From positions 62,001 to 126,000 of the forward strand of contig VXNJ01000001.1 of NCBI GenBank assembly GCA_009840625.1: DNA of 64,000 nucleotides. The letters are read 5' to 3'. This DNA comes from Chloroflexota bacterium (GTDB lineage: Bacteria > Chloroflexota > UBA11872 > VXNJ01). Positions 3,490 to 42,364 of this stretch are shown here, one piece after another (the stretch's first letter is position 1; every line of letters starts with the position of its first letter). Position numbers and translations under genes: made by a program. The notes under the pieces were generated by a model. The model did not search any database. It was not told where the DNA came from and saw only the letters and a list, made by a program, of their open reading frames with translations.

Positions 3490-4185
3490 GTGACCAGTGC
3501 AAACCCGCTCGAACACGTGGGCCCCGGTACTGATCATGTGCCCGATCCCGGCGACGCCCCACTGCGCGCGGTCCTTGTGATTGCGCTCGAAGCTGATGTC
3601 GCTGACGCGATCCTGCACTCCCTCGACCGCCGCCGCACCTGCCGATTCCTCGCGTGGGTCAAAGATGCTGATGGGGCTGTTCGTCGGTTGGCGACCGAAC
3701 GATTCGATTTGGTTGTGGTGGCCGGGCTCTCGCCCGATTTCGCCTTGACCGTGGTGAAGCGACTCCGGGCGTGTCTGGGATCAACCCGCATGTTGGTCGC
3801 TTTGCATCAAGTTCCGGCACCCGTAATCGTGGATGACTTTGTTAATGCCGGGTCTAGCGGATTGGTCGACTGCTCAAAGGGGTATTCGGACCTGCCTGCG
3901 GCCGGCCAGATCATCGCCCACGGACACTCGATCTTTCCGCGCAGAGCGGAACTGAAGTCTCCGAACCAGATTCCGGCGATGGTTGTCGGTCCGGAGGAAC
4001 TCTCTGAACGCGAACGACAGATATTGGAGCTCGTCGCGATCGGTCTGACTTCGCAGCAGGTCGCGGAACAGCTTTACCTGAGCGTGCACACAGTTGAGAA
4101 GTACCTCAGCGTCTGTTACCGCAAGCTCCAGGCCGCCAACCGGGTCCAGGCTTGCAACATCGCCCGTTACTACGGGCTCATCTAG
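3490..4185 (+). CDS. LuxR-type DNA-binding regulator with degenerate receiver domain
   Basis: A 231-residue protein starting with GTG. Residues about 168-225 form a LuxR/FixJ helix-turn-helix (LSERERQILELVAIGLTS, then SVHTVEKYLSVCYRKL). Residues about 28-150 have the length and strand pattern of a response-regulator receiver (RAVLVIAL, FDLVVVAG), but the phospho-acceptor Asp position after FDLVVV is Ala, so classical phosphorylation is unlikely. No sensor kinase gene is adjacent. It ends one base before the ATG of the VirB2-like gene and heads the array to 18285, so it probably controls the secretion/pilus genes. That role is inferred from position. Confidence 0.82.
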   Translation: MTSANPLEHVGPGTDHVPDPGDAPLRAVLVIALEADVADAILHSLDRRRTCRFLAWVKDADGAVRRLATERFDLVVVAGLSPDFALTVVKRLRACLGSTRMLVALHQVPAPVIVDDFVNAGSSGLVDCSKGYSDLPAAGQIIAHGHSIFPRRAELKSPNQIPAMVVGPEELSERERQILELVAIGLTSQQVAEQLYLSVHTVEKYLSVCYRKLQAANRVQACNIARYYGLI

Positions 4186-4186
4186 G

Positions 4187-4600
4187 ATGCGTGACACCGA
4201 CGATCCGGCAAGACCGGGTACTCAGCAGCATCCCGTTGTTTGCCGGTTTCTCGGGTTGGTCCTCACAGCGCCGCTGTGGGCGATCGGAATCGCACTGCTT
4301 GGACCTGAACCAGTTTGGGCTGCCGAAATCGTTGCCCCGGCCAGCAGCTCGGATCCAATCACATTCGCGGTCAATTCGCTGAAGACCTTCCTGGCCACGA
4401 TCGCAACCGTGGTCGTTGCCGCCTCGATCGGTTGGAAAGCGGTGGTGGCCTGGTCGGCCGGAAGCGTTGAGGCCCAACGCGAGGCTCAGCGATTCGCGCT
4501 GCAATCGCTGGTCGTTTACGGCCTGGTGATGGCGTTCAATTTCGGCCTCATGCAGAACGCGGTCGAATACCTGGTCAATTCCATGGGCGGGCGCGCCTGA
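4187..4600 (+). CDS. VirB2/TrbC-like small membrane protein (putative T4SS pilin-like subunit)
   Basis: A 137-residue protein with a Sec-type signal segment (LVLTAPLWAIGIALLG, with a plausible cleavage site after PVWA) followed by two hydrophobic helices, at about 70-92 (ATIATVVVAASIGWKAV) and 105-125. This size and layout match VirB2/TrbC family pilin-like proteins. The ATG lies one base after the regulator stop. It is followed two bases later by a PrgI-like gene and then virB4, the usual order in Gram-positive-type type IV secretion clusters. The call rests on topology and context because VirB2 proteins have little sequence conservation. Confidence 0.5.
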   Translation: MRDTDDPARPGTQQHPVVCRFLGLVLTAPLWAIGIALLGPEPVWAAEIVAPASSSDPITFAVNSLKTFLATIATVVVAASIGWKAVVAWSAGSVEAQREAQRFALQSLVVYGLVMAFNFGLMQNAVEYLVNSMGGRA

Positions 4601-4602
4601 AA

Positions 4603-5022
4603 TTGATCCCTATCCCAGCCGATGTGGAGGAAATCGCCGGCCGGTTCAGTCTGATCGGCTTCTACGTGAGCCCGCGCGAACTGATCTGGCTGACCGGCGC
4701 CGTGGGAGCCGAGGCCACTTTGGCTGGGTTCGCGGTCACAGCCGGGTTCTCGCTGCCGGCGTTGCTGTTGCTGGCGATCCCGGCGTTGGCCTGCTGGGCG
4801 GCATTGAAGCTACGCGTCGATGGGGCGGTGATCGAGCGCTGGGTCGTGGACATGGCGCTTTTCGTCACCCGCGGCCGAGTCCTGGCGACTGGTCGGCAGC
4901 GGCCGGAGTCTGGGACGGCCCGATTGCGCATCAGTCTCGAATACGAAATCGTCAGCCCGGTCCATTCGCTGCGCCGCGGGCACCGCAACGACCGGGGGTT
5001 CCGGTTTGAATCGATCGATTGA
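4603..5022 (+). CDS. PrgI family protein (VirB3-like)
   Basis: A 139-residue protein from a TTG start. It opens with IPIPADVEEIAGRFSLIGFY, the pattern of PrgI family proteins that replace VirB3 in Gram-positive conjugation systems. Two membrane helices follow at about 25-65 (LIWLTGAVGAEATLAGFAV and LPALLLLAIPALACWAAL), then a soluble tail. The 3' end overlaps the virB4 start by 17 bases, so the two are probably translationally coupled, as usual for VirB3-VirB4 pairs. Its expected partner is the VirB4 ATPase at the inner membrane. Confidence 0.68.
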   Translation: MIPIPADVEEIAGRFSLIGFYVSPRELIWLTGAVGAEATLAGFAVTAGFSLPALLLLAIPALACWAALKLRVDGAVIERWVVDMALFVTRGRVLATGRQRPESGTARLRISLEYEIVSPVHSLRRGHRNDRGFRFESID

Positions 5023-7321
5023 AAAGCTATTCGGCGGTAGCCGCCGGTCGGTGCTAGATGTCGGCGTCCGTCGCGTAACCGAGAACGGCATCGAGCGCGA
5101 AGATGGCGTGCTGGTTGCCGGTCTGGCGCTCGCGCCGACAGATCTGGAATCCCTGGACCGAGAGCAGGTTTCCGCGCTGAATTCGGGCATGGCCGGATTC
5201 CTGGCCGGTCTGGACACACCGGTCCAATTTCTGGTAAGCAACAACCGATTCGATGCCGAGCGTTATCTTTCGCGCACCATCGACCGCTGGCGCGGTGACT
5301 GGTTCGCCAAATCCGGCCTGCGCGAGCGTCTTGTTGCTTCCCCTGAAGGCCAAACCTCCTGGGTCACGTTCGCGCATGTCGCGGCCGCGAACGCGAATCT
5401 TCGGCAGATCAAGGTCCGCCTCATGATTCTGGCCCACCGCGGGCGCGGAAAGAGTCCGCCCGACGCCGAATCCCGGATCGAGCGGATCGGTGCGGCGCTC
5501 TCTCAGGCAGGGATCGCCTGGCGGACGATGGGCGGCCTGGAGCTGGTGCTAGAGCTGGAGCGCGCGTTTTTTCACGGCGGCGGAACGCTGGCCAACGCCC
5601 TGGCGGCGGGAGGGCCGATGCGGGTCGTGGAGGGGCTGGAGAACCTGGCGTTCGATCTGGCCGATCCGCTGCCGGAATGGATCGAATTTTCGCCCCGCCA
5701 CATGCGGCTCCCCCTAGCGGAGGGGGACCGGTATTGCGCCGCCGGTTACCTTCGCGCGCTGCCGCGCGCCGTGGATACCGGGTGGCTGGCCCTGCCGTCC
5801 AGATTTGATTTCGATATGACGCTGTCGCTACATATCGACCCACTGCCTGACGAGGAGGTCATGCGCCGGGTCGCCCAATCGGAACGCGAAATCGCCGGAG
5901 CGCTTGACGATGCCGCCGGTACCGATCCGGTCGCTGCCCGGGAGCAACGCTGGCGAGCCGAGGATGTCGGCGAACTGGCTGAAGCCATGCGTGGTCGAGA
6001 CCGCTACTTCAAGCTGGGCGGTTATTACCTGGTGGGCGCAGACTGCCGCGAGGAATTGGACAAAAACCTTCGCACTTTGCGGTCAGTCCTATCGGGGACC
6101 GGGCTGGTCGGGTCCGGCGCATTCGGCTACCAGCGGCAGGCGCTGATGTCGATTCTCCCGCTTGCACGCGAGCAGTTGGTCCGCCGGCGAGGGATCACCA
6201 CGACCCCGTTGGCGGCCGCCCACCCGGGCAGCGGGCGCGGTCGGGCAGATCCCGACGGCTGGTTGCTGGCCGCCTGTGGATGGGACAATGGCCCCAGTGC
6301 GCCGTTCCTGTTCAATCCCTTCTCGCCCGCATACGAAAACCCGCACGTGGCGATCCTGGGGCAGAGCGGAACGGGCAAGACACACCTTGCCCGGGCAATC
6401 GCCTACAGCGCCTGGCTTTCAGGAGCCGAAGTCGCGTTGATCGATCCCAAGAACGAGTACGGGTCGTTATGTCAGCGGTGCGCGGGGTCCGAAATTGTGC
6501 TGGACCTGGGCGGTGGATCGGCCCTGAACGTATTCGATGCGGTCGGTGACGACGAAAGCTCCTACGCTGGCGGCGTCGCCAATGTCGCCGGGTTCTGGCG
6601 AGCGGCCCTCGGGAAGATGAGCGACCATCAGGCCGCCCTGCTTTCCAACGCGATCGAGAGGATCTGCCCGCCGCCCGGGAACCGGACCGGACGGCGCGCT
6701 TTGGCCGGCGACCTGGCCGCCGAACTGACCGATGATTCTTCGATCGACGGGGCGGGTCGCGTCGCCGCCCAGGACCTGGCGCAACGCCTGCAGAGGTTCT
6801 GTGGTCCGGCGATGGGACGTCTCTTTTCGTCTCCGACCAACGTCCAGTTGGACAACGATTTCCTGCTGTTCAAGCTGGCGGGCCTGCGCGCTCAGGACGT
6901 GGACGTTTTCTCGCTGGCCGTAAGGCTTACCCTGCTCGCCCTGGCGCGCTGGTTCAATCGCCCCGCCGACCGCCGCCTAATCCTGATCGACGAGGCCTGG
7001 TGCCTCCTGCATGACCGGGCCGGGTCGCGGTTTCTGCTCGATCTGGCCAAGACTGCGCGGGCCAAGGGCGCGATGCTTTTGATGATCACCCAGGATGTGG
7101 CTGATTTCGCCGCCAATCCCCTGGCGCGTTCGGTGTTGGCAAACTGCGCGGCGGCAATGATCTTTCGCCAGCACCGGGCGCATGGCGCCGCCCTGGCCGA
7201 ATTGTTCGATCTGGATTCTGAGGGCTCGGCGCGCGTTTCGACCCTGCGCCGCGGCCAGGCATTGGCCGCCCTTGCCGGCGGCGAACGGGTGGCGATCGAA
7301 GTGTTTAACCACCCTTGGTGA
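5006..7321 (+). CDS. virB4: VirB4-type secretion ATPase
   Basis: A 771-residue protein from TTG at 5006. The first 430 residues are the family N-terminal domain. A Walker A motif GQSGTGKTH lies at about 452-460, ALIDPKNEYG follows near 480, and a Walker B LILIDEAW near 658, then a TQDVADF segment near 697, all typical of VirB4/TraE ATPases. VirB4 powers assembly of the type IV secretion channel and pilus at the cytoplasmic membrane. The gene overlaps the PrgI gene upstream and the VirB6-like gene downstream. Length and motifs look intact. Whether it serves DNA transfer, protein export or only fibre assembly cannot be told here. Confidence 0.9.
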   Translation: MNRSIEKLFGGSRRSVLDVGVRRVTENGIEREDGVLVAGLALAPTDLESLDREQVSALNSGMAGFLAGLDTPVQFLVSNNRFDAERYLSRTIDRWRGDWFAKSGLRERLVASPEGQTSWVTFAHVAAANANLRQIKVRLMILAHRGRGKSPPDAESRIERIGAALSQAGIAWRTMGGLELVLELERAFFHGGGTLANALAAGGPMRVVEGLENLAFDLADPLPEWIEFSPRHMRLPLAEGDRYCAAGYLRALPRAVDTGWLALPSRFDFDMTLSLHIDPLPDEEVMRRVAQSEREIAGALDDAAGTDPVAAREQRWRAEDVGELAEAMRGRDRYFKLGGYYLVGADCREELDKNLRTLRSVLSGTGLVGSGAFGYQRQALMSILPLAREQLVRRRGITTTPLAAAHPGSGRGRADPDGWLLAACGWDNGPSAPFLFNPFSPAYENPHVAILGQSGTGKTHLARAIAYSAWLSGAEVALIDPKNEYGSLCQRCAGSEIVLDLGGGSALNVFDAVGDDESSYAGGVANVAGFWRAALGKMSDHQAALLSNAIERICPPPGNRTGRRALAGDLAAELTDDSSIDGAGRVAAQDLAQRLQRFCGPAMGRLFSSPTNVQLDNDFLLFKLAGLRAQDVDVFSLAVRLTLLALARWFNRPADRRLILIDEAWCLLHDRAGSRFLLDLAKTARAKGAMLLMITQDVADFAANPLARSVLANCAAAMIFRQHRAHGAALAELFDLDSEGSARVSTLRRGQALAALAGGERVAIEVFNHPW

Positions 7322-8505
7322 AATGCCTGTCCGGCGCCGTACTGATGATGGCGCTGCTGTTCGTTACCAATCCGGTCCTGGCCCAGGAACCAGGCGACGG
7401 CACCCCCGGATCCGCGGTCGAAGCTCCAAGTCCGGTGGAACTTCTGCCGTTGCCATGGAACGATCCCGGCGCCGCCGCGGCGGCGGCCGGAGCCGGCCTG
7501 GTGGGGGAGCTCACGCGCGTGATCAGCGGACCCCTGGAGTGGGTATGGGCTTATCTCTTCCTGGTCCCGGATGCGATCGACCCGGCGCGCGCAGACCAGG
7601 TGGATGCGGCGCTGGCGCGAATCGCCCCGGCGGGTTTGAGCGATCCGATTTTCAGCGGCTACGGAGCGGCCGTGGCGGTACGGACGGCCTGGGAGCGGTC
7701 GCGCGAACTGGCGCTCTCCTCGCGGCTGCCGTTTCTTGGACTGGTGCTGGGCGGGTTCGCGGTCTGGGCGCTGGCGATGCTGTTTCTCGGTCGACCGGTC
7801 GACGTTCCCGCGGCCGCTGGACGCTTAGGGATCGCTCTGCTCGGGTCGCTGGCCTCATATCAATTCGTAGATGCCATGCTCCAGGTCAACGACATCCTGG
7901 TGAGGCTTTTCGCCGGCATCGGGTCGACGGACGTGCTGCTGGGCGCGCCGCAGACTTTGATGAGCGCCTGGAGCTGGGGGGAAGACGCCGACAGTCTTGT
8001 GGACCTGGGCGGGGCGCTGCTGCAGGGCGCGTGGTATGGACTCTTTCGCGCATTCCTGCAATTGCTGCTGCTGATCGGGATGGCCGGGATTGCGATCCGC
8101 CTGCTGGTGCGCCTGGTCTGGATCTGGGCCCTGACGGTGGTCGCCCCGCTGGTGCTGACGCTGGCGGTATTCCCTCCGGCCGCGCGATTGCCGGAGCTGT
8201 GGTTGCGCCGCCTGCTCCGTACCGTATTTGAGAAATCGGCCCTGGTCCTGGGACTGTCGGTGAGTTTTTCGGTCATTGCTCTGCAACCGCCGGGCCTGCT
8301 CAGCGTCGCCCTGGCAATCGTGGCCCTGTTCGTCGCCCAGGCGCTGCCGGGATTCCTGCTCGACGCCGTGGCCGGAGCCGGTGGCCAGGGCGGGCGAGCG
8401 ATCCTGGGGCACCTCGCCGGTCCGGCGTCCGGGTGGCACAATGCCCGGCGGATCTTCAGGCGCACCCGGATGGGCCCGAAACCGCGCGCCGGGCCCGGAC
8501 CGTGA
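7318..8505 (+). CDS. VirB6/TrbL-like polytopic membrane protein
   Basis: About 395 residues, starting at GTG 7318, which overlaps the virB4 stop (GTGA); a TTG one codon earlier is the alternative. A signal-like segment (AVLMMALLFVTNPVLAQ) is followed by at least five hydrophobic helices, including LGLVLGGFAVWALAML, LLLLIGMAGIAIRLLVRLVW and ALTVVAPLVLTLAV, and a basic, Pro-rich tail. Position directly after virB4 and topology fit the VirB6/TrbL channel component of type IV secretion systems. No catalytic motif is expected. Sequence identity of this class is low, so the call leans on context. Confidence 0.6.
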   Translation: MKCLSGAVLMMALLFVTNPVLAQEPGDGTPGSAVEAPSPVELLPLPWNDPGAAAAAAGAGLVGELTRVISGPLEWVWAYLFLVPDAIDPARADQVDAALARIAPAGLSDPIFSGYGAAVAVRTAWERSRELALSSRLPFLGLVLGGFAVWALAMLFLGRPVDVPAAAGRLGIALLGSLASYQFVDAMLQVNDILVRLFAGIGSTDVLLGAPQTLMSAWSWGEDADSLVDLGGALLQGAWYGLFRAFLQLLLLIGMAGIAIRLLVRLVWIWALTVVAPLVLTLAVFPPAARLPELWLRRLLRTVFEKSALVLGLSVSFSVIALQPPGLLSVALAIVALFVAQALPGFLLDAVAGAGGQGGRAILGHLAGPASGWHNARRIFRRTRMGPKPRAGPGP

Positions 8506-8711
8506 AGCTGGTCTGGGTGCTTGGCCGCGTGGCACTGGAGGCGGGCATCTCAGCTATCGCCCGTCGAGGCGATGCCCCGGGCGAGCAGGAAGGTCGATCC
8601 AGTGGCGCAATTCACGTGTTGCTGGCGGCCGGGATCGCGGCCCTGATCCTCGCGACGCCGGGGATGCTCATCGCCCTGTGGTTGGCCGGTTTCTCGCCTG
8701 GCTCACCCTGA
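8502..8711 (+). CDS. Small single-pass membrane protein of the secretion cluster
   Basis: A 69-residue protein from GTG at 8502, overlapping the preceding stop by a GTGA. One strong hydrophobic helix near the C-terminus (AAGIAALILATPGMLIALWLAG) is preceded by a charged, polar stretch. No family was recognised. The tight overlap on both sides (about 34 bases with the next gene) implies co-translation with the VirB6-like and VirD4-like proteins, so a small accessory subunit of the same complex is a reasonable inference. Confidence 0.55.
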   Translation: MKLVWVLGRVALEAGISAIARRGDAPGEQEGRSSGAIHVLLAAGIAALILATPGMLIALWLAGFSPGSP

Positions 8712-10720
8712 ACGGAATTCGAGCCAAGCGCAACCACCTAACCGAATCGGCCTATTTCCGGATCGTGCCGGAATTCGAAAGCGCGGCGCCGCTCGGCCAT
8801 TGCGGCGACCCCGACCCCCAGGGGATCCTGCACGCGGCCCTGTCCGGATTGGCCGATTACGAAGAGGTCGAAATCCGGTGGCTGTTCGCGCCCGCGTCTC
8901 CAAATGCCCAGCGCCAATTCGCGGCCGCCTGCGGCCGGTTGCAGAACGGCATCGCCCCCTATCGCCACGGGCTAGCGGCCAGCCTGGCGCGATCCGTCGT
9001 CGGTGGAGTCAGGTTCCTTCTCGACGTTATGTTCTGCCGACCGGAGCATCCTGTACCTCACCGAGAAAGCGAGCTCTCCCGAATCGTCGCCAAACGCGCG
9101 CTCGAACCGCTATTGGCTGGGGCGGTCCTGGCCCGCGTTCGGGCCCCCAATGCACGGCATGGCACGATCGTCGCCGCGCTGGCCCAGGCGCTTGGCCAGT
9201 ACGGGTCCGGTTGGAATCGGCTGAAGGTCGAACGGCTGTCCGACAACCGCCGCGCTGAATCTTGGTTCGACGGCTGGCGCTTGCCGAATTCGGGATGCTG
9301 GCTGCTTACCGCCGCGGACGCGGCCGCGCTCTGCGAACTGCCAACGGCGCGGTCCCGCGATCCCAACCTGGCCCGCGCGCCGGCCGCCCAGGTCCCGCCG
9401 GCGGCGATGGTGCCGGTGGGCGAGGGGCTCTTTCTGGGTTGGCCCGAACCGGGATCGGCCGATCCCAGGCGGCAACTTGGTCTGCGCACCGAGGACGCGC
9501 TGCGGCACGTGCTGGCGGTCGGACCGACCGGGACCGGCAAGAGCACATTCCTATATTGGTACGCCCAGTCGGCAATCCGCAGCGGTATGGGATTGCTGCT
9601 GCTGGATCCCAAGGGAGACCTCGCCGAAGCGGTCCTGGACGCGGTGCCAGAGTGCCGGGCCAACGACGTCGCATTCCTGAACTTTGCCGACACCGCCAGA
9701 CCGATCGGGCTCAACCCGCTGGCGGTGACCGATACGGCCGCGGCCGACCAGACCGCGGCGGCGGTAAGCACCATGATGCGCGAGCTGGTTACCGGCGAGG
9801 GCATGGCGTGGGGCACCACTATGTCGCAGGCGTTCGCCTACGGCTTTAGGACCCTGGCCGCAAATCCACAGATCGAACCGACCATGCTGGACCTGGAGCG
9901 GCTGTTCTTCGACCGCGGATGGCGCGCCGGTCTGCTGCAGAACGTCTCCGATCCGTTCGTTGCCGCCTACTGGACCAACCAGGTGGACCGGATGGGCGAG
10001 CGCCAGTTCGAGCTCAACTTCGGATCGGCGCTGCGTCGGATGGCCCTACTGGTCAACGACCCGCGTGTCCGCAACATCCTGGCTCAGGCGCGGCCGGCAG
10101 TGCGCTGGGACCGTGCGTTAAAGCGATCGGCGATCGTGCTGGTGAACCTGGACCAGGCCGACAACGCCCTTGGGATCGCCGGATCGCGCCTGCTGGGCAG
10201 CATCATCGTCACCCAGTTCTGGCAGGCGGTGCTGAGGCGCCCGCGCGGAGATCGGCCGCCGTTCATCTTCCTGATCGACGAATTCCAGGAATTCCTCGAT
10301 ACCGGCCGCAACATGGGGGCGTTCTTCGAGCGCTCCCGCAGTTACCGGGTGGGGATGTGCATCGCGACCCAGTCCCTGGCCCAGCCGCGGCTCAAAGCCG
10401 TGCGGCGCACGGTGACGATCAACGCTCGCACCCACGTGGTGTTTGGCGGGTTGCGGGACGAGGCCCGGCACTTCGCGCTGTCAACCGAACCGCACTTTTC
10501 GGCCCGCGACTTGGACCGCCGCGAGGCATTCCAGATGACGGTTTCGACGCTGGTTGACAACCAGCCGGTGCCGCCGTTTTCAGCCCACGTGACGGCGCTG
10601 CCGGATCCCTGTGCGGATCGGCTGACGGCCCGAAAGCGGCGCGCCTCGCAGCTGTTTGGCGCCGACCTGGGGCAACTCGAGGAGAGCGTTCGCCGGCGCT
10701 ACGGCCCGCGTCTTAACTGA
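8678..10720 (+). CDS. VirD4/TraG-like coupling ATPase
   Basis: About 680 residues if GTG 8678 is the start. The frame is open further upstream, but the region before 8678 overlaps other genes, so this is the best canonical start. Walker A GPTGTGKST lies near 282, LLLLDPKGDLAEAV near 307, and Walker B FIFLIDEFQEFL near 530, followed by a CIATQSLAQPRL segment. This is the pattern of VirD4/TraG/TraD-type and related DUF87-like ATPases that feed substrates to type IV secretion channels. The N-terminal hydrophobic part is short (FLAWLTL), so the separate membrane protein encoded just upstream could act as anchor. No relaxase gene accompanies it. Confidence 0.78.
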   Translation: MVGRFLAWLTLNGIRAKRNHLTESAYFRIVPEFESAAPLGHCGDPDPQGILHAALSGLADYEEVEIRWLFAPASPNAQRQFAAACGRLQNGIAPYRHGLAASLARSVVGGVRFLLDVMFCRPEHPVPHRESELSRIVAKRALEPLLAGAVLARVRAPNARHGTIVAALAQALGQYGSGWNRLKVERLSDNRRAESWFDGWRLPNSGCWLLTAADAAALCELPTARSRDPNLARAPAAQVPPAAMVPVGEGLFLGWPEPGSADPRRQLGLRTEDALRHVLAVGPTGTGKSTFLYWYAQSAIRSGMGLLLLDPKGDLAEAVLDAVPECRANDVAFLNFADTARPIGLNPLAVTDTAAADQTAAAVSTMMRELVTGEGMAWGTTMSQAFAYGFRTLAANPQIEPTMLDLERLFFDRGWRAGLLQNVSDPFVAAYWTNQVDRMGERQFELNFGSALRRMALLVNDPRVRNILAQARPAVRWDRALKRSAIVLVNLDQADNALGIAGSRLLGSIIVTQFWQAVLRRPRGDRPPFIFLIDEFQEFLDTGRNMGAFFERSRSYRVGMCIATQSLAQPRLKAVRRTVTINARTHVVFGGLRDEARHFALSTEPHFSARDLDRREAFQMTVSTLVDNQPVPPFSAHVTALPDPCADRLTARKRRASQLFGADLGQLEESVRRRYGPRLN

Positions 10721-10842
10721 AGCCGGGCACCGGGGCGCGCATACGGGATTCCCTCTGGCGCAAGGGTCCTGGGCGGACCGAGGATTCTGCCAGCGCCGGA
10801 GTCCCGGCGCATAACACCTGGAGCTACAAAACGGAGCAGTTC

Positions 10843-11229
10843 TTGCCTTTGGCGCCGGCCGGGCTTCTGGCCGGCTGCGGCCTGGCAATTGCCGTCGCGC
10901 TTTTCGTTTGGTTGGGAGCCCGATCAGGGCCACTGGCTGGCGATCCGACCGGGACCTGGTACCGGATTCTGGTACCTTCCGACCACGATGGGCCGGCGCA
11001 TTCGATGCTTTCCGAGCTCGCCCGATCGGGCGAGCTGGCCGCACCCGGTCCGCGCCTGCTGGGCGGAGCGGAACCGGCCGCTTTCGGCCGCGCGGTCAGG
11101 ATCAACGCCCGCCGGATCTCATACAGCGATTACACCGCCGGGCCCTGGTCGGGAAACCACCCCGCGCGCCTCAAGCACCTTTACCCCGGTATCCGGGTAG
11201 ACGTCTCCCAAAGGAGGAACCTTGCTTAA
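10843..11229 (+). CDS. Small N-anchored protein of unknown function in the pilus array
   Basis: A 128-residue protein from TTG 10843, with GGAG six bases upstream. An N-terminal hydrophobic helix (GLLAGCGLAIAVALFVWLG) is followed by a soluble domain of about 100 residues with no recognised motif. Its 3' end overlaps the Flp pilin start by eight bases. It is separated from the VirD4-like gene by 122 bases, so a promoter for the pilus half of the array may lie in 10721-10842, though none was identified. Function unknown. Confidence 0.5.
   Translation: MPLAPAGLLAGCGLAIAVALFVWLGARSGPLAGDPTGTWYRILVPSDHDGPAHSMLSELARSGELAAPGPRLLGGAEPAAFGRAVRINARRISYSDYTAGPWSGNHPARLKHLYPGIRVDVSQRRNLA
11211..11217 (+). 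promoter_or_regulatory. Strong ribosome binding site of the Flp pilin
   Basis: AAGGAGG lies four bases before the TTG start of the pilin at 11222. It is the most complete Shine-Dalgarno match noticed in the array, fitting a pilin needed in many copies, and it decides the TTG as start. Confidence 0.75.
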
Positions 11230-11419
11230 TCGGATCATGCTGCGCCTGCGCGGCACTCTCGCGCGGTTCATCGCCGACGAGCGCGGTTCGGCGACCGAGT
11301 ACATCATGATCGCCGGCCTGGCGGTGATAGTCCTCGGCGCCGCCGTGGTGACCTGGAACGAAGGTCTGGTCACCTACCTCGACGACATGCTCTCCGACCT
11401 GCAGGGGCTGGGGGAGTAA
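11222..11419 (+). CDS. flp: Flp/Fap-type pilin
   Basis: A 65-residue protein from TTG 11222. It has a short basic leader, then ERGSATEYIMIAGLAVIVLG, the Flp pilin hallmark: a Gly-type processing site followed after a few residues by Glu and Tyr (the T-E-Y pair), running into a hydrophobic helix. The prepilin peptidase encoded at 17821 should remove the leader. The mature subunit polymerises into Tad pili used for adhesion. A strong ribosome binding site precedes it. Confidence 0.85.
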   Translation: MLNRIMLRLRGTLARFIADERGSATEYIMIAGLAVIVLGAAVVTWNEGLVTYLDDMLSDLQGLGE

Positions 11420-11474
11420 CGTCTTCCGGGCCCTGGCAAGCGAGCGCGGCGGCGCGGCCACCGAGGCGATCCTG

Positions 11475-11825
11475 GTGTTGTCGCTTCTGGCGCCGCTGTT
11501 TGCGGCGATGATCGCGCTCGGAGACCTCTGGGCCGACCAGGTGGCGTTGGACCATGTGGCGGCCGTCGCGGTCCGCCGCGCCGCCGCCGCCGGCGGGGAC
11601 TCGGCGCAGTTGCGGGCGAGCCTGCGGTCCGATCTCGAGGCGGCCGGTCTGCCGGAAGATTCGGTGACGGTGCGGGTCGATCCGGCAGCGCCGGCCTGGC
11701 AGGACTCGATCACGGTGCGCCTCAGCCTGTCGCGCAGCATCCAGATCCCGCTGCTCGGATCCCGGGACCTGCAGCTGTCTTCGCAGTTCGCGGCCCGCAA
11801 CGAGGTCGGCGAGGTCGCCGCATGA
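11475..11825 (+). CDS. tadE: TadE-like minor pilin
   Basis: The canonical start (GTG 11475) gives 116 residues, but the coding frame is plainly longer: from 11421 it reads ALASERGGAATEAILVLSLL, the TadE leader with ERGG and the conserved Glu. No ATG, GTG or TTG lies upstream in frame; a CTG at 11433 is the best candidate start. The hydrophobic helix (LLAPLFAAMIALG) is followed by a small periplasm-side domain rich in Ala and Arg. TadE-type pseudopilins help assemble Flp fibres. The stop overlaps the next ATG. Confidence 0.7.
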   Translation: MLSLLAPLFAAMIALGDLWADQVALDHVAAVAVRRAAAAGGDSAQLRASLRSDLEAAGLPEDSVTVRVDPAAPAWQDSITVRLSLSRSIQIPLLGSRDLQLSSQFAARNEVGEVAA

Positions 11826-12289
11826 TCGGGCGATTCCTATTTGGCGAACGCGGATCGGTCAGCGTGCAGGGGATCCTGCTGCTGGGCATATTCATGGTCG
11901 TGCTGGCGTTCGTGGCCGAATTCGGGTCGCTGCGCGCCAAGACCCTGCGGCTGCAGTCGGCGTTCGACCGCGCGGCCCTGGCGGCAACCGGTGCGATCGA
12001 TGGCGGCGCCCTGGCCGATAGAGGCGAGCTCAGGCTCGATGCGGCGGCCGCCGAGGCCGTCGCCCGGGAATACCTGGCCGCCAACCTGGAGCCGCTGGAA
12101 GGCTCGATACCCGGTATGACCGCGAGCCGGGTTGCGACCGCCGCCCAAGTCGGGGTTTCCTCGGCGCCGGAATCGTCCGTCACGCTGTCGGGCGTGGTGG
12201 ATCTGCCCAACGGGTTGCTCGCAATCGTCGGCGTCGGTCCGACCACCACCCACCGCATCGAATCCCATTCCGTATTGGAAGGACCCTGA
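11822..12289 (+). CDS. TadG/TadE-like pilus assembly protein
   Basis: A 155-residue protein whose ATG overlaps the tadE stop (ATGA). It opens with a TadE/G-type leader (ERGSVSVQGILLLGIFMVVL) with one hydrophobic helix, then a region (TLRLQSAFDRAALAATGA) like the QxAxDxAALAAA stretch of TadG and Flp-associated proteins. TadG proteins are normally larger and carry a von Willebrand domain, which is missing here, so this is a short version. It probably sits at the pilus base or tip with TadE. Confidence 0.6.
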   Translation: MIGRFLFGERGSVSVQGILLLGIFMVVLAFVAEFGSLRAKTLRLQSAFDRAALAATGAIDGGALADRGELRLDAAAAEAVAREYLAANLEPLEGSIPGMTASRVATAAQVGVSSAPESSVTLSGVVDLPNGLLAIVGVGPTTTHRIESHSVLEGP

Positions 12290-12290
12290 A

Positions 12291-12713
12291 TTGATCGGTA
12301 GAAACCTCTGGGCGCTCATGGTAGCCGCCCTCCTGCTGGCGGCGTTGGCCGGCGGCATCTGGTTCTCCAACCGTCCCGCACCAACCGAAAGCACCGAACC
12401 CGTCCCAAGCGGGGCCGGACCGGGGCCGACCCAACCACGCGCGCTGGCCCCAGTCGGCCTGGAGATCGGCTCCGACGAGGGACCGGGTCCCTTCGAGCTG
12501 ACGATCGGAGAGCGGCTAAGCCTGCTGGCGGCGGTGGAGCTCGAAGACGGCAGCGTCAGGTACGACGCCCCGATCAGCTGGTCGAGCTCAGATCCGCAGA
12601 TAGCCCGCGTCGATTCGCAGGGTCTTTTGAGCGGGATGGGAATCGGGCAGGTTCGGTTAACGGCCGAACTATCCCCATTGATTACGGAAGTTACCGTCCG
12701 CGTTGGCGAGTAG
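12291..12713 (+). CDS. Membrane-anchored protein with Big_2-like (bacterial Ig) domain
   Basis: A 140-residue protein from TTG 12291; GGAAGGA lies seven bases upstream. An N-terminal helix (LWALMVAALLLAALAGGIWF) is followed by a Pro-rich linker and a C-terminal domain with ISWSSSDPQIARVDSQGLLS, the signature of group 2 bacterial Ig-like domains (W-S-S-S-D-x-x-A-x-V-D-x-x-G-x-L). Such domains give adhesins extracellular bulk or binding surfaces. Its place between pilin-like genes and the secreted protein suggests a surface role with the fibre. Overlaps the next gene by 11 bases. Confidence 0.62.
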   Translation: MIGRNLWALMVAALLLAALAGGIWFSNRPAPTESTEPVPSGAGPGPTQPRALAPVGLEIGSDEGPGPFELTIGERLSLLAAVELEDGSVRYDAPISWSSSDPQIARVDSQGLLSGMGIGQVRLTAELSPLITEVTVRVGE

Positions 12714-14292
12714 CAGCGACTTGAATGCGGCGTTGACGCGAGCCTTGTCCGGCATATTCGGGGTCGCGCTGGCGGTCCTGCTGCTGGTCACGGGAGCTCC
12801 TCCGGCGCTCGCCGACCACGGCGAGTGGCAGGAGCGGCAGACCTGGATCGAACCGGTGCGGGAAGAAAGGATCCGCGTGATTCCCGGCCGCTGGGTGAAC
12901 AAAAGGGTCTGGGTCCCGCCGCGCACGGTGACCAGGGAGGAGACGACCACCGTTGAAGTCGAAGTCGAATACCAGTACTACGTCGAGGACGGGCACTGGG
13001 ACGTCGTTCACGTTTGGGTCGAGGCCTACGAGGTCCGGTGCCAAACAGTCTGGAAGTGGTACCGGGACTGCTCGGATTTCTGGGGCTCCTGCGAATGGGT
13101 CTACGGTCCGCGCGAGGAGTGCAAGCGGGTCGACGTCTCGTATTTCCGGTTGGAGCGCCGCTGGGTCGACACCTCCTACTGGGAGACCCGCACCCGCACC
13201 GAAAACCGGCAGGAAACCCGGACCGTGACCGAGGAGATCCCGGGTTACTGGGAAACCCGGCAACGGTGGGTGCCGGGCCGGACCGAGACCTACTGGCACG
13301 AAATCGAGCCGGGGCGCTGGGAGACCACCCGGGTATGGGTGGAGCTGCCCCACGAGGGAGTCGGCGAAGAGCCGCCTGCGTGCAGGCCCAGCGGCATCTA
13401 CAAGGTTTCCAGCAACTACGTGGGCAACACCCAGTGGACCGACGAGGACGGGACCATCCATTACGGGACCGAGACCTCCCCTGAAGAGAACCCCTGGTGG
13501 GCGGTCAGCCTGGGTTCGGTTTCCAAGGGCAGCGGCAGCCGCTACGACTCGCAGGCCTTCAACGGCCGCGGGAGCGGCGCCGACGGCCTGCTGCTTGCGG
13601 GACGCTTCTACCGCAACTACCTGCCGGACGGGGATTGCTTCGAAGCGGTGAGCGTCGTCTTCTTCCAGGACGATACGGTCGTGGCCGGCGAGCTGGACGA
13701 ACCCGGTACCCCCGATCCAACCCCAACGCCCGACCCCGGTTCGCCGACCCCGACCCCGAGTCCCACGCCCGAGGCAACGCCCACGCCCGGCAATCCACCG
13801 AACTCGCCGACCAAATCTCCGACTTCCACCCCGACCCGGCGACCGACCACCCCGCCCCATTCCCCGACCCAGCCGCCGGTCGTCTTGGATCCCGGGGGAG
13901 AGTTCGCCTTCGCGGTGGCCATCGAAGGGTCCGGTGAAGTGACCGGAGCCGGCCAGCCGAGCATCCAGGTGCTGCGCGGCGCTCCCGTCGAGGTCTATCT
14001 GCTGCCGCGCCTTAAACCGCCGGAACAGGACCCTGAAGCCACGATTTCGTTCAGGTCGTGGACCTACCTTTCAGGACCCAACGATCATCCGGATTCGCCC
14101 ACAGCCGGGACGGTGCACGGTCCGCTGCAACCGCTGCGATTGCGTCTCGACGCCCGTCCGCCCGCCGGACGCGCGCAGCATCAGATCGAACTCTCGGCCC
14201 GCGTGCGGGTCATCGCCAGCGACGGGCGCATCGAGGACTTCGAACTGCCGGTCACGCTCCTGGCCCAGGTCCACTACCAGGCGATCGCGTGA
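12703..14292 (+). CDS. Secreted Trp/Arg/Tyr-rich repeat protein with Pro-Thr stalk
   Basis: A 529-residue protein from TTG 12703. A signal peptide (ALAVLLLVTGAPPALA) is followed by about 190 residues of irregular aromatic-basic repeats built on P-G-R-W / R-x-W-V-P / E-T-R-T units (RVIPGRWVNKRVWVPPRTV and, further on, GYWETRQRWVPGR and EPGRWETTRVWVELP). Four Cys lie at about 107-145. After a small domain comes a Pro-Thr-Ser stalk at about 330-390, then a C-terminal beta-rich domain. No family was recognised beyond general likeness to W-x-x-V-P-G repeat proteins. The location inside the Tad genes and the secreted architecture suggest a fibre-associated adhesin or tip protein; this is inference. 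Confidence 0.6.
   Translation: MASSSDLNAALTRALSGIFGVALAVLLLVTGAPPALADHGEWQERQTWIEPVREERIRVIPGRWVNKRVWVPPRTVTREETTTVEVEVEYQYYVEDGHWDVVHVWVEAYEVRCQTVWKWYRDCSDFWGSCEWVYGPREECKRVDVSYFRLERRWVDTSYWETRTRTENRQETRTVTEEIPGYWETRQRWVPGRTETYWHEIEPGRWETTRVWVELPHEGVGEEPPACRPSGIYKVSSNYVGNTQWTDEDGTIHYGTETSPEENPWWAVSLGSVSKGSGSRYDSQAFNGRGSGADGLLLAGRFYRNYLPDGDCFEAVSVVFFQDDTVVAGELDEPGTPDPTPTPDPGSPTPTPSPTPEATPTPGNPPNSPTKSPTSTPTRRPTTPPHSPTQPPVVLDPGGEFAFAVAIEGSGEVTGAGQPSIQVLRGAPVEVYLLPRLKPPEQDPEATISFRSWTYLSGPNDHPDSPTAGTVHGPLQPLRLRLDARPPAGRAQHQIELSARVRVIASDGRIEDFELPVTLLAQVHYQAIA
13700..13875 (+). repeat. Low-complexity Pro/Thr/Ser-coding repeat
   Basis: Imperfect repetition of C-rich triplets such as CCGACCCCGACC encodes P-T-P-x-P units in the stalk of the secreted protein. 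It is prone to slippage, so length may vary between strains. Confidence 0.7.
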
Positions 14293-14942
14293 GAGCGATC
14301 AACTGGTGGCGGATCGCCCTGCTGGCGCTGGCGCTGCTGCTGGCCGGCGGTGCGGTATCGATGTACTTACTGGACGACCGCCCGGCCAAGGTCCTGGTCC
14401 TGGCCCGCGACGTCCCGGCCGGCCAGCGGCTGGTCGAGTCAGATCTTTCCTTCAAGAATGCCCCGCGCGGCGCGTTGCCGCCCGGCGCCCTTGCCGATCC
14501 TGAAGCGGCGATTGGACAGCATGCGCGCGGGCCCCTGCCACGGGGCCAATACCTGACCGGCCGGCAGCTGGCTCCAACCGCCTGGCGTGCGCTCGCCGAA
14601 TCCAGCATCAAGCTGCCGGTGGGATGGTCCCTGCTGGCGTTGCCGATGGAATTCGAGCACGCCCTCGGCGGGGCCCTCTCGCCGGGGCAGAAAGTCGACC
14701 TGTACGCGGTCGCCAAGCGATCGGCCGGACCGGCCGAGATCCTGGCACCCGGAGCCCGGCTGATCGACCTGCGCAGCCCGGATGGGCAGAGCCTGGCGGT
14801 GGCGCGTTCTCCCGGATTGGATGCCGACGAACCGCTCGGCTCGGTGTTGATCGCCCTGCCGCGCGCGTTGCTGGCCCGGGTAATCGCCCGCATCGAAAGT
14901 TCGCACTTCGTGCTGGCGACCGCCGCGGACGCCGGTCCCTGA
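14289..14942 (+). CDS. cpaB: CpaB/RcpC Flp pilus assembly protein (SAF domain)
   Basis: A 217-residue protein from GTG 14289, overlapping the preceding stop (GTGA). An N-terminal helix (IALLALALLLAGGAVSMYLL) leads to an SAF domain: VLVLARDVPAGQRLVESDL at about 35-55 and a second strand set near LPRGQYLTGRQL, then a C-terminal beta domain with SPGQKVDLYAV. This matches CpaB/RcpC, a periplasm-side component of Tad pilus assembly. The stop overlaps the proposed CTG start of tadA. Confidence 0.8.
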   Translation: MRAINWWRIALLALALLLAGGAVSMYLLDDRPAKVLVLARDVPAGQRLVESDLSFKNAPRGALPPGALADPEAAIGQHARGPLPRGQYLTGRQLAPTAWRALAESSIKLPVGWSLLALPMEFEHALGGALSPGQKVDLYAVAKRSAGPAEILAPGARLIDLRSPDGQSLAVARSPGLDADEPLGSVLIALPRALLARVIARIESSHFVLATAADAGP

Positions 14943-16201
14943 CGGCAACAGCACCCGGTTCTGGAAATCTCGAGGCCCAACTCGATTTCCTGCGCGACCA
15001 GCTGCTCCATCAAGTGGAACCCGAGCTGCTTGATCCATTCCGTTCTGAGCCCGGTCAGCGCCGGCAGCTGCGCGAGTTGATCAGGGAACTGCTGGCGCAG
15101 TGGTCGCCGGGCGCCGAATTCGGGGCCGAGCGGATCGAGACCCTGCTGGCCGAGCTGATCGGTCTGGGGCCGCTGGACCCGCTGCTTTCCGATCCGGGCA
15201 TATCAGACATCCTGGTTAACTCCCCCGACGAGGTCTGGGTCGAACGCCGCGGGCGCCTGGAACGCGTCGATACCGCTTTTCGGGGTCCGGAACACCTGGG
15301 CGCGTTGATGGAGAAGATCGCCGCCCTGGTCGGGCGGACCATTAGCCTGCAGACGCCCTGCCTGGATGCCCGGATGGCCGACGGTTCGCGCGCCAACCTG
15401 GTCATCGCTCCGGTGGGCGGTCCGTGTCTATCGATCCGGCGGCACCGCCAGGAACTGCGACCCCTGTACGGCGCCGCCGATTCGTGGGCCGCCGGCGGCG
15501 GGATGAGCGAACTGATGGGCAGGTTGTTCGCCATGGCCATGAGCGCGCGCTGCAATTTCCTTATCTCCGGCGCCACCGGGGCCGGCAAGTCGACCTTTCT
15601 GGCTTCGCTTTTGGCGCATGTGCCGCCAAACGAGCGATTGGTGGTAATCGAGGACACCCAGGAATTGCCGATCGATCCCGGCGCTCACGCCGTGCGTCTG
15701 CAGTGCGTGCATGACGTGCGGGGCGCCAGTTCGGGCCAGCGTCGCGTGAACCTGGCCGACCTGGTCGTCAACGCCCTGCGGATGCGCCCGGACCGCCTGG
15801 TGGTCGGTGAGATTCGCACCCCGCGCGAGGCTTACGTGACCATAGAAGCCCTGAACACCGGGCATCCCGGGTCGGGATCGACCATTCACGCCGACGGCGC
15901 CGCCGATGCATTGGGGCGGCTCGAGATGCTGATCAGGCGCGAGTACGGGGGGTTCAGCGCCGCCGACGTGCGGGCGCCGATCGCCCGGGCGTTTGATTTC
16001 ATCGTCCATGTCGGGCGCCTGGAGAACGGGCGCCGGATCGTTCGCGAGGTGATCGAACTGGCCGGGATGCGGGGTTCGGAATACGACCTGCGTCCGGCGT
16101 TTGCCTGGACCGCGGACGCTGGGTTTCAACCCTGCGGCGAATACAGGACAGGACCGCGGGTCAAGGCCAAGTTCGGTTCCACGTCCGACGTCGGCGCCTA
16201 G
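14939..16201 (+). CDS. tadA: TadA/CpaF pilus assembly ATPase
   Basis: About 420 residues. The family N-terminal domain (LDPLLSDPGISDILVN near 80, and ARMADGSRANLVIAPV near 145) precedes Walker A SGATGAGKST near 209, RLVVIEDTQELPI (Asp and Glu boxes) near 233, and VGEIRTPREA near 290 with HPGSGSTIHADGA near 310. TadA hydrolyses ATP to drive Flp pilin polymerisation with TadB and TadC. No ATG, GTG or TTG lies close to the expected N-terminus; CTG at 14939 overlaps the cpaB stop as CTGA, mimicking the ATGA and GTGA couplings of the neighbours, and is proposed as start. Catalytic motifs are intact. Confidence 0.88.
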   Translation: MTATAPGSGNLEAQLDFLRDQLLHQVEPELLDPFRSEPGQRRQLRELIRELLAQWSPGAEFGAERIETLLAELIGLGPLDPLLSDPGISDILVNSPDEVWVERRGRLERVDTAFRGPEHLGALMEKIAALVGRTISLQTPCLDARMADGSRANLVIAPVGGPCLSIRRHRQELRPLYGAADSWAAGGGMSELMGRLFAMAMSARCNFLISGATGAGKSTFLASLLAHVPPNERLVVIEDTQELPIDPGAHAVRLQCVHDVRGASSGQRRVNLADLVVNALRMRPDRLVVGEIRTPREAYVTIEALNTGHPGSGSTIHADGAADALGRLEMLIRREYGGFSAADVRAPIARAFDFIVHVGRLENGRRIVREVIELAGMRGSEYDLRPAFAWTADAGFQPCGEYRTGPRVKAKFGSTSDVGA

Positions 16202-16202
16202 C

Positions 16203-17054
16203 GTGCCGATTCACTTCGGATTGGTCGCAGCCGGTGTGGCAGTCCTGCTACTGGGCGCGTTTGACCTGCCGATTGCGGCATCCCGACTCCCGATCTTCGC
16301 CGCGGCCGGGGAGTTCCTGGCGCGGATCCGGCGCGCCAGCGGGATCAGTCTGGGATCGGCCCAGCTGCTCGTGGTCTGCTGCATCGCGGGTTTGGGGGCA
16401 GGTCGGTTGGCCGCAGGGATCTCCATCCAGATGGCGGTGTTATCCGGGGCCGCGGCCGCAATGGCGCCGCTGGCGTACCTGTGGCTGCGCACCGCCGGGC
16501 ACGAGCGCCGCATCGAGCGCGAGGTGATCGCCTGCTCCCGGCAGCTCTCGGCGCACCTGGCCGCCGGCGAGAACCTGTACCGCTCGATCCGCCAGCTGGC
16601 CGGATCGCGCGACAACCCGGTCGAGGAGGCACTCGGCAAGGTAGCCGACGAGTTCCGTTTCGATCGGCCGTTGGCCCAGGTGCTTGGCGCGGCGGCGGTC
16701 CGAGCCCAATACCGGCCGCTGGCGTTGTTGCTGACGGTAATGGCCCAACTCGCCCGGCAGGGCGCGCAGGGCCAGGCGGCCGCCGACGTGCTGGACCTCG
16801 TCGCCCGGCAGATCGAGCTCGGGCTGCGCGCGCGCGAGCAGCTCACCGAGCGAACCCGTGGGATTGCTATACAGATCTACGTCGTGGCAGGGGCGATCCC
16901 GCTCATGGCCGTCTGGCTCTGGCAGAGCTCCCCGTACCGGTTCTCCGTGTTTGAACTGCCGTTGGGGCGCTCGATCCTTATGCCATTTGCACTGGTGATG
17001 GAACTTATTGGATTGGTCCTGCTCTGGCGCTGGACCCGGCCCGATTCGCTGTGA
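16203..17054 (+). CDS. tadB: TadB-like Flp pilus assembly membrane protein
   Basis: A 283-residue protein from GTG 16203, one base after the tadA stop. N-terminal helices (HFGLVAAGVAVLLLG and later LLVVCCIAGLGAG, MAPLAYLWL) are followed by a cytoplasmic T2SSF-type region with ACSRQLSAHLAAGENLYRSI and LAQVLGAAA near 155, and C-terminal helices (IYVVAGAIPLMAVWLW, LVMELIGLVLLWRW). This is the usual TadB layout; it anchors the TadA motor together with TadC. Overlaps tadC by GTGA. Confidence 0.8.
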   Translation: MPIHFGLVAAGVAVLLLGAFDLPIAASRLPIFAAAGEFLARIRRASGISLGSAQLLVVCCIAGLGAGRLAAGISIQMAVLSGAAAAMAPLAYLWLRTAGHERRIEREVIACSRQLSAHLAAGENLYRSIRQLAGSRDNPVEEALGKVADEFRFDRPLAQVLGAAAVRAQYRPLALLLTVMAQLARQGAQGQAAADVLDLVARQIELGLRAREQLTERTRGIAIQIYVVAGAIPLMAVWLWQSSPYRFSVFELPLGRSILMPFALVMELIGLVLLWRWTRPDSL

Positions 17055-17821
17055 GCATTTCTGCGATCGCCCCACCCGCAATGTTGCTGGCGGCCGCGCT
17101 GCTGGTTGGAATAACTGTCCGGATCAGATCGAAGCAACGAGGCGCAACGGAATCGAACCGTATTCGGTCTGCGCTGCCGGTAAGCATTAAGGCGCCTCCG
17201 ACGCCAATCAAACGGCGTTTTTTGCTGGCGCTGGTCGGAATCGCATTAGGAGTGGCGCTTGTGCCGTTGATCGGTCTTCCCGCATTCGGATTGGCCGGGG
17301 TATTGGCCATGATGGGTTCGCTGCTGCCGCGATTGCGTGAAGAGCGAGATCGGGCCCGAGACAAGGCATCGGCGCTGAGTCAGGTCCAGTTGGCCATGGC
17401 GTTGCTGCGGGCCCAGATCGCTATGGGGCTGGGGCTGGAGGCGGCCCTACGCCTACTGGCCTACACCCCATTGATTGGTGGGGCCTTGACGAAAAGGCTG
17501 CGCTCGGTGCTTGCTGCATACGGGCTGGGCCGATCGGCGGAAACTGCCCTGTCGCAGTTGGGGCGCGAGCTGGGTTCGGTTGAGATAGAGATCCTGGCGC
17601 GCTCGATCACCCAGGCGCGGCGATTGGGAGTGGGGCTGGAAGAGACCCTGGCAAGGTCCGAATTCGAGTTCGTTGCCGCCCACGAGCGCCGTGTCGCGGC
17701 GGCCGCCGAACGGGCCCAGTTGCGTTCGCAGTTGCTGGTTGTCGGATGCTTTCTGCCCGCATTCATGGCCATGGTCCTGGTACCTCTTTTCCTTGGGATG
17801 CTGCAGGGCCTGGGCTCCTGA
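17051..17821 (+). CDS. tadC: TadC-like Flp pilus assembly membrane protein
   Basis: A 256-residue protein from GTG 17051. Two N-terminal helical regions precede a T2SSF-like cytoplasmic domain (VQLAMALLRAQIAMGLGLEAAL near 120, ILARSITQARRLGVGLEETL near 185) and a final helix (LLVVGCFLPAFMAMVLVPLFL). The family sits beside TadB in the membrane. The stop overlaps the ATG of the prepilin peptidase by one base. Confidence 0.78.
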   Translation: MSISAIAPPAMLLAAALLVGITVRIRSKQRGATESNRIRSALPVSIKAPPTPIKRRFLLALVGIALGVALVPLIGLPAFGLAGVLAMMGSLLPRLREERDRARDKASALSQVQLAMALLRAQIAMGLGLEAALRLLAYTPLIGGALTKRLRSVLAAYGLGRSAETALSQLGRELGSVEIEILARSITQARRLGVGLEETLARSEFEFVAAHERRVAAAAERAQLRSQLLVVGCFLPAFMAMVLVPLFLGMLQGLGS

Positions 17822-18285
17822 TGGCCACCGGTAACATGGCGTCGGCGGCTTGCGGGTTCGCCTGGCTCCTGACGGCGGTGATGCTGATGCTTGCGTCGTG
17901 GTTTGACATGCGATGGCGTCGGATACCGAATTGGCTTACGGTTGCAGCAGCCTTCGGCGGGTTGGCAATCGCGCTCATCCAGGGGGCACTTCTTTGTGCA
18001 TTGTTTGCGGTCCTACTCTCAATGCTGGTCACAAGTCTTCCCAACCTCTTTAAATCCGGCGCGATTGGCCCCGGAGATATAAAGCTGGTGGGGGCCGTTG
18101 GTGCATTGCTGGGCATCGCTAGCACCTTATTCACAATTGGTGCCGCATCCGGTGCGGCCCTGGCTTACGCAATCTCCATTGGGAGATTGCGAAGGAGCCG
18201 CAACCGACACTCCGCCCTACCTTTTGCTCCCTTTCTCCTAGCTGGATTTCTACTGGCAACTCGGGACGGGCTATGGCCCATTTGA
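17821..18285 (+). CDS. cpaA: Prepilin peptidase (TadV/CpaA type)
   Basis: A 154-residue membrane aspartyl protease from ATG 17821. The two catalytic Asp motifs are present: SWFDMRWRRIPNWLT near 33 and GPGDIKLVGAVGALLG near 85, the second being the G-x-G-D motif. It also has LPFAPFLLAG near the C-terminus. It lacks the N-terminal methylase domain of PilD, as usual for Tad-type enzymes. It should process Flp and TadE/G leaders. It is the last gene of the array. Confidence 0.85.
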   Translation: MATGNMASAACGFAWLLTAVMLMLASWFDMRWRRIPNWLTVAAAFGGLAIALIQGALLCALFAVLLSMLVTSLPNLFKSGAIGPGDIKLVGAVGALLGIASTLFTIGAASGAALAYAISIGRLRRSRNRHSALPFAPFLLAGFLLATRDGLWPI

Positions 18286-42362: not shown

Positions 42363-42364
42363 GA

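Follow-up and report, generated by a model that had tools for sequence, protein, structure and literature searches.

A Chloroflexota gene array that probably couples a DNA-transfer-channel core with a Tad pilus

What does it mean that the genes of a type IV secretion system (T4SS) stand directly before those of a Tad (Flp) pilus, in one row? Such an array occupies positions 3490-18285 of a 64,000-nucleotide stretch of a Chloroflexota genome (G000:C1:62001-126000, hereafter the window; genome 2.27 Mb, 97% complete), and because the contig measures 800 kb it lies away from the contig end. The array has 17 genes, not the 18 of a preliminary description of this DNA. All are on the + strand and tightly packed, with neighbours that abut or overlap by 4-17 bases and a widest intergenic gap of ~120 bases, measured between the VirD4 stop codon and the first standard start codon of the following gene. 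The same-strand, mostly overlapping layout, with the T4SS set ahead of the Tad set, had been described earlier and is confirmed by the layout of open reading frames (ORFs) and by profiles. Judging from sequence comparisons, we think it fairly probable that the gene products build a single composite machine at the cell surface, in which the pilus is coupled to the inner-membrane core of a T4SS of the monoderm conjugation type. This combination of a DNA-transfer-channel core and a Tad pilus would probably grab a neighbouring cell and move DNA between cells.

The best single piece of evidence for physical coupling comes from other families of the phylum, where a T4SS protein (PrgI) is joined to a Tad protein (TadZ). 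A survey of 400 genomes of the phylum recovered a TadA group, at 44-60% identity, with members in families f2, f9, f13, f19, f24, f33 and f47; the relatives are taken to be Chloroflexota because some genomes of that phylum encode 19-28 reductive dehalogenases each, like Dehalococcoides. Nine loci of f9, f13, f19 and f24 run on a single strand in the order (PrgI-)TadZ - TadA - TadB - TadC - Flp - TadE - TadE - (repeat protein) - CpaB - VirB4, and in these families a single ORF before TadA combines an N-terminal PrgI domain (Pfam 8.5e-6) with a C-terminal ParA domain. A profile of the PrgI part, which is weaker in f9 loci (3e-10, 3e-9), retrieves, at E 1e-10 to 5e-6, PrgI proteins that stand alone next to VirB4 in Chloroflexota T4SS loci lacking Tad, and with a profile of the ParA part the matches (down to 4e-18) are TadZ/CpaE proteins that precede TadA at ordinary Tad loci from across the bacteria. 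In families f33 and f47 this Tad type occurs with no VirB4, and TadZ of f33, in the sister clade, is without PrgI; three contigs of the Tad group end too early for the presence of VirB4 to be judged. Where the contig allows, genomes G060, G234 and G383 (f13/f24) also carry VirB2, VirB6-like, SLT/M23 hydrolase, VirD4 and Replic_Relax genes. The absence of TadZ, reported in the preliminary description, holds for the window's genome, in which a sister-family TadZ profile found one 48-residue P-loop match only, and not for the system, since f2 has a TadZ and f9, f13, f19 and f24 have the fusion.

The Tad half of these arrays also has its own ATPase lineage. All 17 rows of the TadA tree that are linked to a T4SS fall into one clade (SH-like approximate likelihood ratio test, 84), and T4SS linkage needs one change of state. 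This clade is sister to f33/f47 (support 99) within a 29-row clade whose stem, 1.16 changes per column long, sets it off from ordinary Tads (support 100). As a control, relatives of VirB4, VirB6, PrgI and VirB2 were found near 0 of 80 ordinary Tad loci of other bacteria, within fetched flanks of up to 10 kb each side.

Co-inheritance is visible in the taxonomic order of the window's genome. With matches counted at E<1e-100, 8 of 24 genomes have VirB4 and 7 have TadA; all seven TadA genomes, including the window's, have both (hypergeometric P 2.3e-5, uncorrected for kinship). Sister family f2 has two loci. Locus A reads luxR - TadZ/ParA - VirB2 - PrgI - VirB4 - VirB6 - M23 peptidase, a luxR homologue being found 5' of the T4SS locus in 7/7 sister-family genomes, and locus B reads VirD4 (two ORFs) - Replic_Relax - Flp - TadE - TadE - Big_2 - repeat protein - CpaB - TadA - TadB - TadC - prepilin peptidase. 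Each of the six f2 B loci has VirD4 ahead of its Tad genes. It follows from this composition that VirD4 belongs to the Tad side and TadZ to the T4SS side, and that the window's order equals both loci end to end. The seam that had been placed near 10.8 kb is thereby moved: because VirD4 travels with Tad in the sister family, the natural seam is near 8.5 kb. Extra VirD4 copies also occur in G005, G012 and G015 (L107-L111); none is with Tad, and most are near a Replic_Relax-type gene.

The comparison of co-occurrence and synteny across related genomes, which the preliminary description had suggested, thus finds the halves apart in f2 and joined in other families, that is, not always apart. Chance juxtaposition in one genome is rejected, as the linkage recurs in relatives. 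The earlier idea of one apparatus is in this measure well supported, by the TadA clade, the PrgI-TadZ fusions, the one-strand arrays in four families and the co-inherited split halves in a fifth.

The genes of the window's array are as follows; several of the starts are uncertain, and many of the genomes compared are draft assemblies.

3490..4185, +, LuxR/NarL-type regulator with receiver-like N-terminus and GerE helix-turn-helix (GerE 3e-16)
4187..4600, +, VirB2-like pilin candidate, signal helix and helical hairpin (sister-family orthologues 56-61% identical; hairpin model)
4603..5022, +, PrgI/VirB3-like inner-membrane protein (profile alignment; stands before VirB4)
5006..7321, +, VirB4 ATPase (NCBIfam conju_CD1110 4e-38; PDB 4ag5, VirB4-like, 9e-17)
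7315..8505, +, VirB6/TrbL-like polytopic membrane protein (TrbL 0.011, below cut-off)
8441..10720 (start 8441, 8678 or earlier), +, VirD4/TraG-type coupling ATPase, no obvious transmembrane segment (T4SS-DNA_transf 2.7e-5, above cut-off; TraG-D_C 1.4e-3)
10843..11229, frame open from 10717, +, small membrane or secreted protein of no family (no Pfam match; the sister family has Replic_Relax at the same place)
11237..11419, +, Flp major pilin (ERGxATEYIxIA motif only; orthologues in this position in six relatives, 49-57% identical)
11475..11825, frame open from 11352, +, TadE-like minor pilin 1 (TadE 0.042; conserved order)
11822..12289, +, TadE/TadG-like minor pilin 2 (conserved order)
12318..12713, +, secreted Ig-like (Big_2) protein (Big_2 7e-4; kept in six relatives)
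12703..14292, +, candidate adhesin, large and secreted, its repeats rich in Trp/Arg and its stalk in Pro/Thr (no family)
14289..14942, +, CpaB/RcpC with SAF domain (TIGR03177 5e-16, SAF 7e-14)
14939..16201 (start CTG 14939 or GTG 15014), +, TadA/CpaF ATPase (TIGR03819 8.5e-76; T4SS-linked clade)
16203..17054, +, TadB (T2SSF 1e-9)
17051..17821, +, TadC, in tandem with TadB (T2SSF 9e-6)
17821..18285, +, prepilin peptidase, TadV/PilD-like (Peptidase_A24 5e-13)

Among the identities given to these genes in the preliminary description, those of VirB4, VirD4, CpaB, TadA, TadB, TadC and the prepilin peptidase are firm, and those of VirB2, PrgI, VirB6, Flp and TadE derive mainly from orthologues, motifs and order. 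The window's VirB2-like protein has no Pfam match, and one sister-family orthologue matches TrbC/VirB2 at 4e-4, below the cut-off. The AlphaFold model of the window's protein is a helical hairpin with a mean pLDDT (predicted local distance difference test) of 68, and a Foldseek fold search with it was uninformative. The window's PrgI, likewise without a Pfam match, aligns with the PrgI part of the fusions at hhalign E 3.5e-4, with a probability of only 37%. The VirB6-like protein is 36-38% identical to sister-family proteins encoded after VirB4; its homology to the polytopic protein of f13/f24 was not demonstrable. The VirD4 motor is ~62% identical in six relatives, where it lies upstream of Tad, and the repeat protein has homologues in the corresponding position at most loci belonging to the array's Tad clade. 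A VirB11 identity for TadA is rejected (PDB CpaF 4e-89 vs VirB11 1e-43). The window's genome gives one match each for VirB4, VirD4 and TadA. The G+C content is ~0.65-0.68 over most of the array vs 0.53-0.60 in both flanks, and a promoter and terminator scan of the array gave no signal above chance.

How might such a machine work? From gene content and order, the fusion in relatives, the dedicated TadA clade and the co-inheritance of split halves, all of which are seen directly, we infer joint assembly of the products, DNA as cargo and the direction in which the DNA would move. Flp and TadE-like pilins would be matured by the prepilin peptidase, and the fibre would be extended and retracted by TadA, TadB and TadC on a CpaB base, with the Big_2 and repeat proteins as putative surface or tip adhesins. 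A neighbouring cell bound by the fibre would be pulled close. PrgI, VirB4, VirB6 and the VirB2-like pilin would form the translocation channel, VirD4 would select cargo and feed the channel, and TadA may also replace the missing VirB11. The cargo is likely to be DNA: VirD4, Replic_Relax and recombinases occur near relatives, and the closest functional parallels move DNA. This would most likely be domesticated conjugation-like exchange, as in archaeal Ced/Ups, or, in some relatives, the work of an integrative element's transfer machine.

The same parts could in principle serve contact-dependent protein export, in which the Tad fibre would hold a target while a VirB4/VirD4 channel injects effectors. 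Proteins can be recruited by VirD4, a PF03432 relaxase is missing from 12 of the 14 genomes tested, and relaxase-less T4SSs are known from Patescibacteria (PMC12102498). We nevertheless regard protein export as very unlikely, since the array holds no effector-like gene and the Replic_Relax genes and integrases beside relatives indicate DNA. DNA traffic fits the neighbours of the array better than contact-dependent export does.

Several observations weigh against a single machine. The halves are at separate loci in f2, where G007 carries A without B, and the f2 co-occurrence counts are phylogenetically non-independent. By sequence, the window's VirB2, VirB6 and PrgI are weakly assigned. The window's array is without TadZ, Replic_Relax, a wall hydrolase and a relaxase: no VirB1-like wall hydrolase or VirB8 gave a Pfam match among the array genes (M23/SLT occur in relatives), and no PF03432 (MOBP) relaxase was found in the window's genome, other relaxase families not having been searched. 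One G267 locus of the clade has no VirB4, with a serine recombinase in its place. A single origin of the Tad-linked VirB4s is rejected, as they form three groups (monophyly, approximately unbiased test, p 1e-75). The f9/f19 loci, finally, hold only PrgI and VirB4, with no VirD4, VirB6 or VirB2 nearby, and a genome-wide search of G081 gave no VirD4 match; these loci therefore cannot be full translocators of the window's type. A secretin and TadD were not seen in the array, for which no dedicated or genome-wide search was made; secretins are absent from monoderm Tads (PMC6668835).

The f9/f19 loci make a pilus-motor role a serious rival, because what they retain beside Tad, PrgI-TadZ and VirB4 alone, marks PrgI and VirB4 as the irreducible T4SS part. 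VirB4 and PrgI could then be accessory Tad motor parts, with VirB4 extracting, recycling or retracting pilins, PrgI docking VirB4 to TadZ/TadA, nothing being translocated, and VirD4, VirB6 and VirB2 being extras in some lineages. However, VirB6-like, VirB2-like and VirD4 genes are also kept in the window, f2, f13 and f24, and VirD4 has its place ahead of the Tad genes in every f2 B locus examined (6/6), so that we consider this explanation unlikely.

The history of VirB4 bears on a further explanation. Since the linked VirB4s are not one lineage, T4SS parts have been recruited or replaced more than once. Two of the three linked groups adjoin VirB4s of Tad-less loci; the count of VirB4 changes may be one too high, because L029, scored as Tad-less, has a TadZ-like neighbour. 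The simplest reading of these sequences would be that one Tad lineage kept its T4SS link while the T4SS ATPase was replaced or re-recruited. Family f22 has isolated PrgI-VirB4 pairs (L047:9324-12402, L048:7601-9993), with no other T4SS gene recognised nearby and with VirB4s related to the Tad-linked VirB4s of f9/f19. Searches of plasmids with VirB4 and TadA returned remote relatives only.

Polyphyletic VirB4s would also suit a remnant or cargo arrangement, in which an integrative conjugative element carries an ordinary Tad locus for adherence and the two machines are separate. Recombinases lie near several relatives (G060, G267 and f2 locus A), related Tad-less T4SS loci have Replic_Relax-like genes, one of them adjoining an integrase-like gene, and a Cutibacterium acnes plasmid offers a precedent. 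We hold this arrangement to be quite unlikely, because it is at odds with the PrgI-TadZ fusion, the single T4SS-linked TadA clade, the position of VirD4 inside the Tad operon and the co-inherited split halves, and no integrase or att-like repeat was found in the window.

From its surroundings, the window's array may be a system domesticated on the chromosome or may belong to a mobile island. No integrase was found near the array, the genome's two tyrosine integrases being elsewhere (serine recombinases were not searched), and no att-like flanking direct repeat was found around it in the window, yet it adjoins an island at 20-43 kb. This lower-G+C island (20675-43450) holds restriction-modification and defence-like genes: an exonuclease, an HNH nuclease, two C5 methylases, a UvrD-PDDEXK helicase, a D12 methylase, a DUF7687/7690 protein, an HATPase protein and a GmrSD-Schlafen protein, with a three-gene row without Pfam matches at 39619-43450. 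An Mrr-type restriction endonuclease gene (1549-2550) lies just upstream of the array. Just 3' of the array is an endonuclease/exonuclease/phosphatase-family gene (18466-19341); G005 has a 50% identical homologue (L096:2159-2989) next to its locus B, on the Tad side. In G060 and G383, ThiS-like, E2-family, JAB and ThiF genes of a bacterial ubiquitin-like conjugation operon lie a few kb 3' of the hybrid array (L247:2114-4999, named by Pfam; L248:7377-10237, named by sequence similarity), followed in G060 by a methylase, an ATPase, an excisionase-like gene and a tyrosine integrase.

Are comparable systems known? The preliminary description knew of none, overlooking the C. acnes tad/VirB4 plasmid, Ced/Ups and R64. 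The closest published case is the linear plasmid of C. acnes, in which a tad locus stands side by side with a VirB4-type conjugation locus (VirB4, TcpC and FtsK genes), as in the array, and whose authors leave a functional link undecided (PMC5696575). It differs in that the conjugation genes are divergent from tad, coupling is FtsK-type and there is no fusion. Membership of its TadA in the T4SS-linked clade is unsupported: the protein has at most ~29-30% identity to the tree rows, sits on its own branch of 3.06 and is not nearest to the clade. Unlike the array, the IncI plasmid R64 has an MPF_I (mating-pair formation) T4SS, a T4b pilus, diderm hosts and a relaxase. Its T4SS and its pilus, of the type IV pilus (T4P) family, cooperate in mating-pair formation, according to a citation in PMC12102498.

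In archaea, Ced (VirB4/VirB6/VirB2) and the Ups pilus serve DNA exchange (PMC9905601, PMC11868833). Exchange of the Ced/Ups type imports DNA from cell to cell and is induced by DNA damage. The likeness to the array lies in the VirB2, VirB6 and VirB4 homologues, a contact pilus of the type IV family and the lack of a recognised relaxase (PMC9905601); the differences are the archaeal host, the placing at separate loci, the lack of a VirD4-type coupling protein from Ced as described and the lack of a PrgI-TadZ fusion. The match of the window's array to CedB is weak (2e-7), and its VirB2 and VirB6 are weakly assigned. The monoderm T4SS of Patescibacteria has a VirB4, PrgI/VirB3, VirB6 and VirB2-like set, mostly without relaxase, but the accessible part of that report describes no Tad operon and treats T4P as a separate system (PMC12102498). 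DNA uptake requires Tad genes in Micrococcus luteus, whose competence pili are unlike the array in that the accessible part of the source mentions no VirB4/VirD4 part (PMC4322843). DNA uptake in Liberibacter also depends on Tad. No description of the Chloroflexota composite was found in the open literature, subscription papers being outside that search; both component families are known, their combination being new to that literature.

Returning to the composite machine, we see an evenly balanced case for its most specific form, a Chloroflexota-specific nanomachine in which TadZ, fused to PrgI, would thereby be wired to VirB4, so that a retractile pilus and a channel serve the exchange of DNA between cells, the apparatus having become a domesticated chromosomal one in some lineages. 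Little is understood of how monoderms that lack a classical conjugative pilus make mating contact, and whether Tad cooperates with conjugation in the C. acnes plasmid was left undecided. That question becomes testable through the PrgI-TadZ fusion and the TadA clade, which name the linking protein contact and define a set of genomes. If the composite machine is real, bacteria would have a counterpart of archaeal Ced/Ups DNA exchange.

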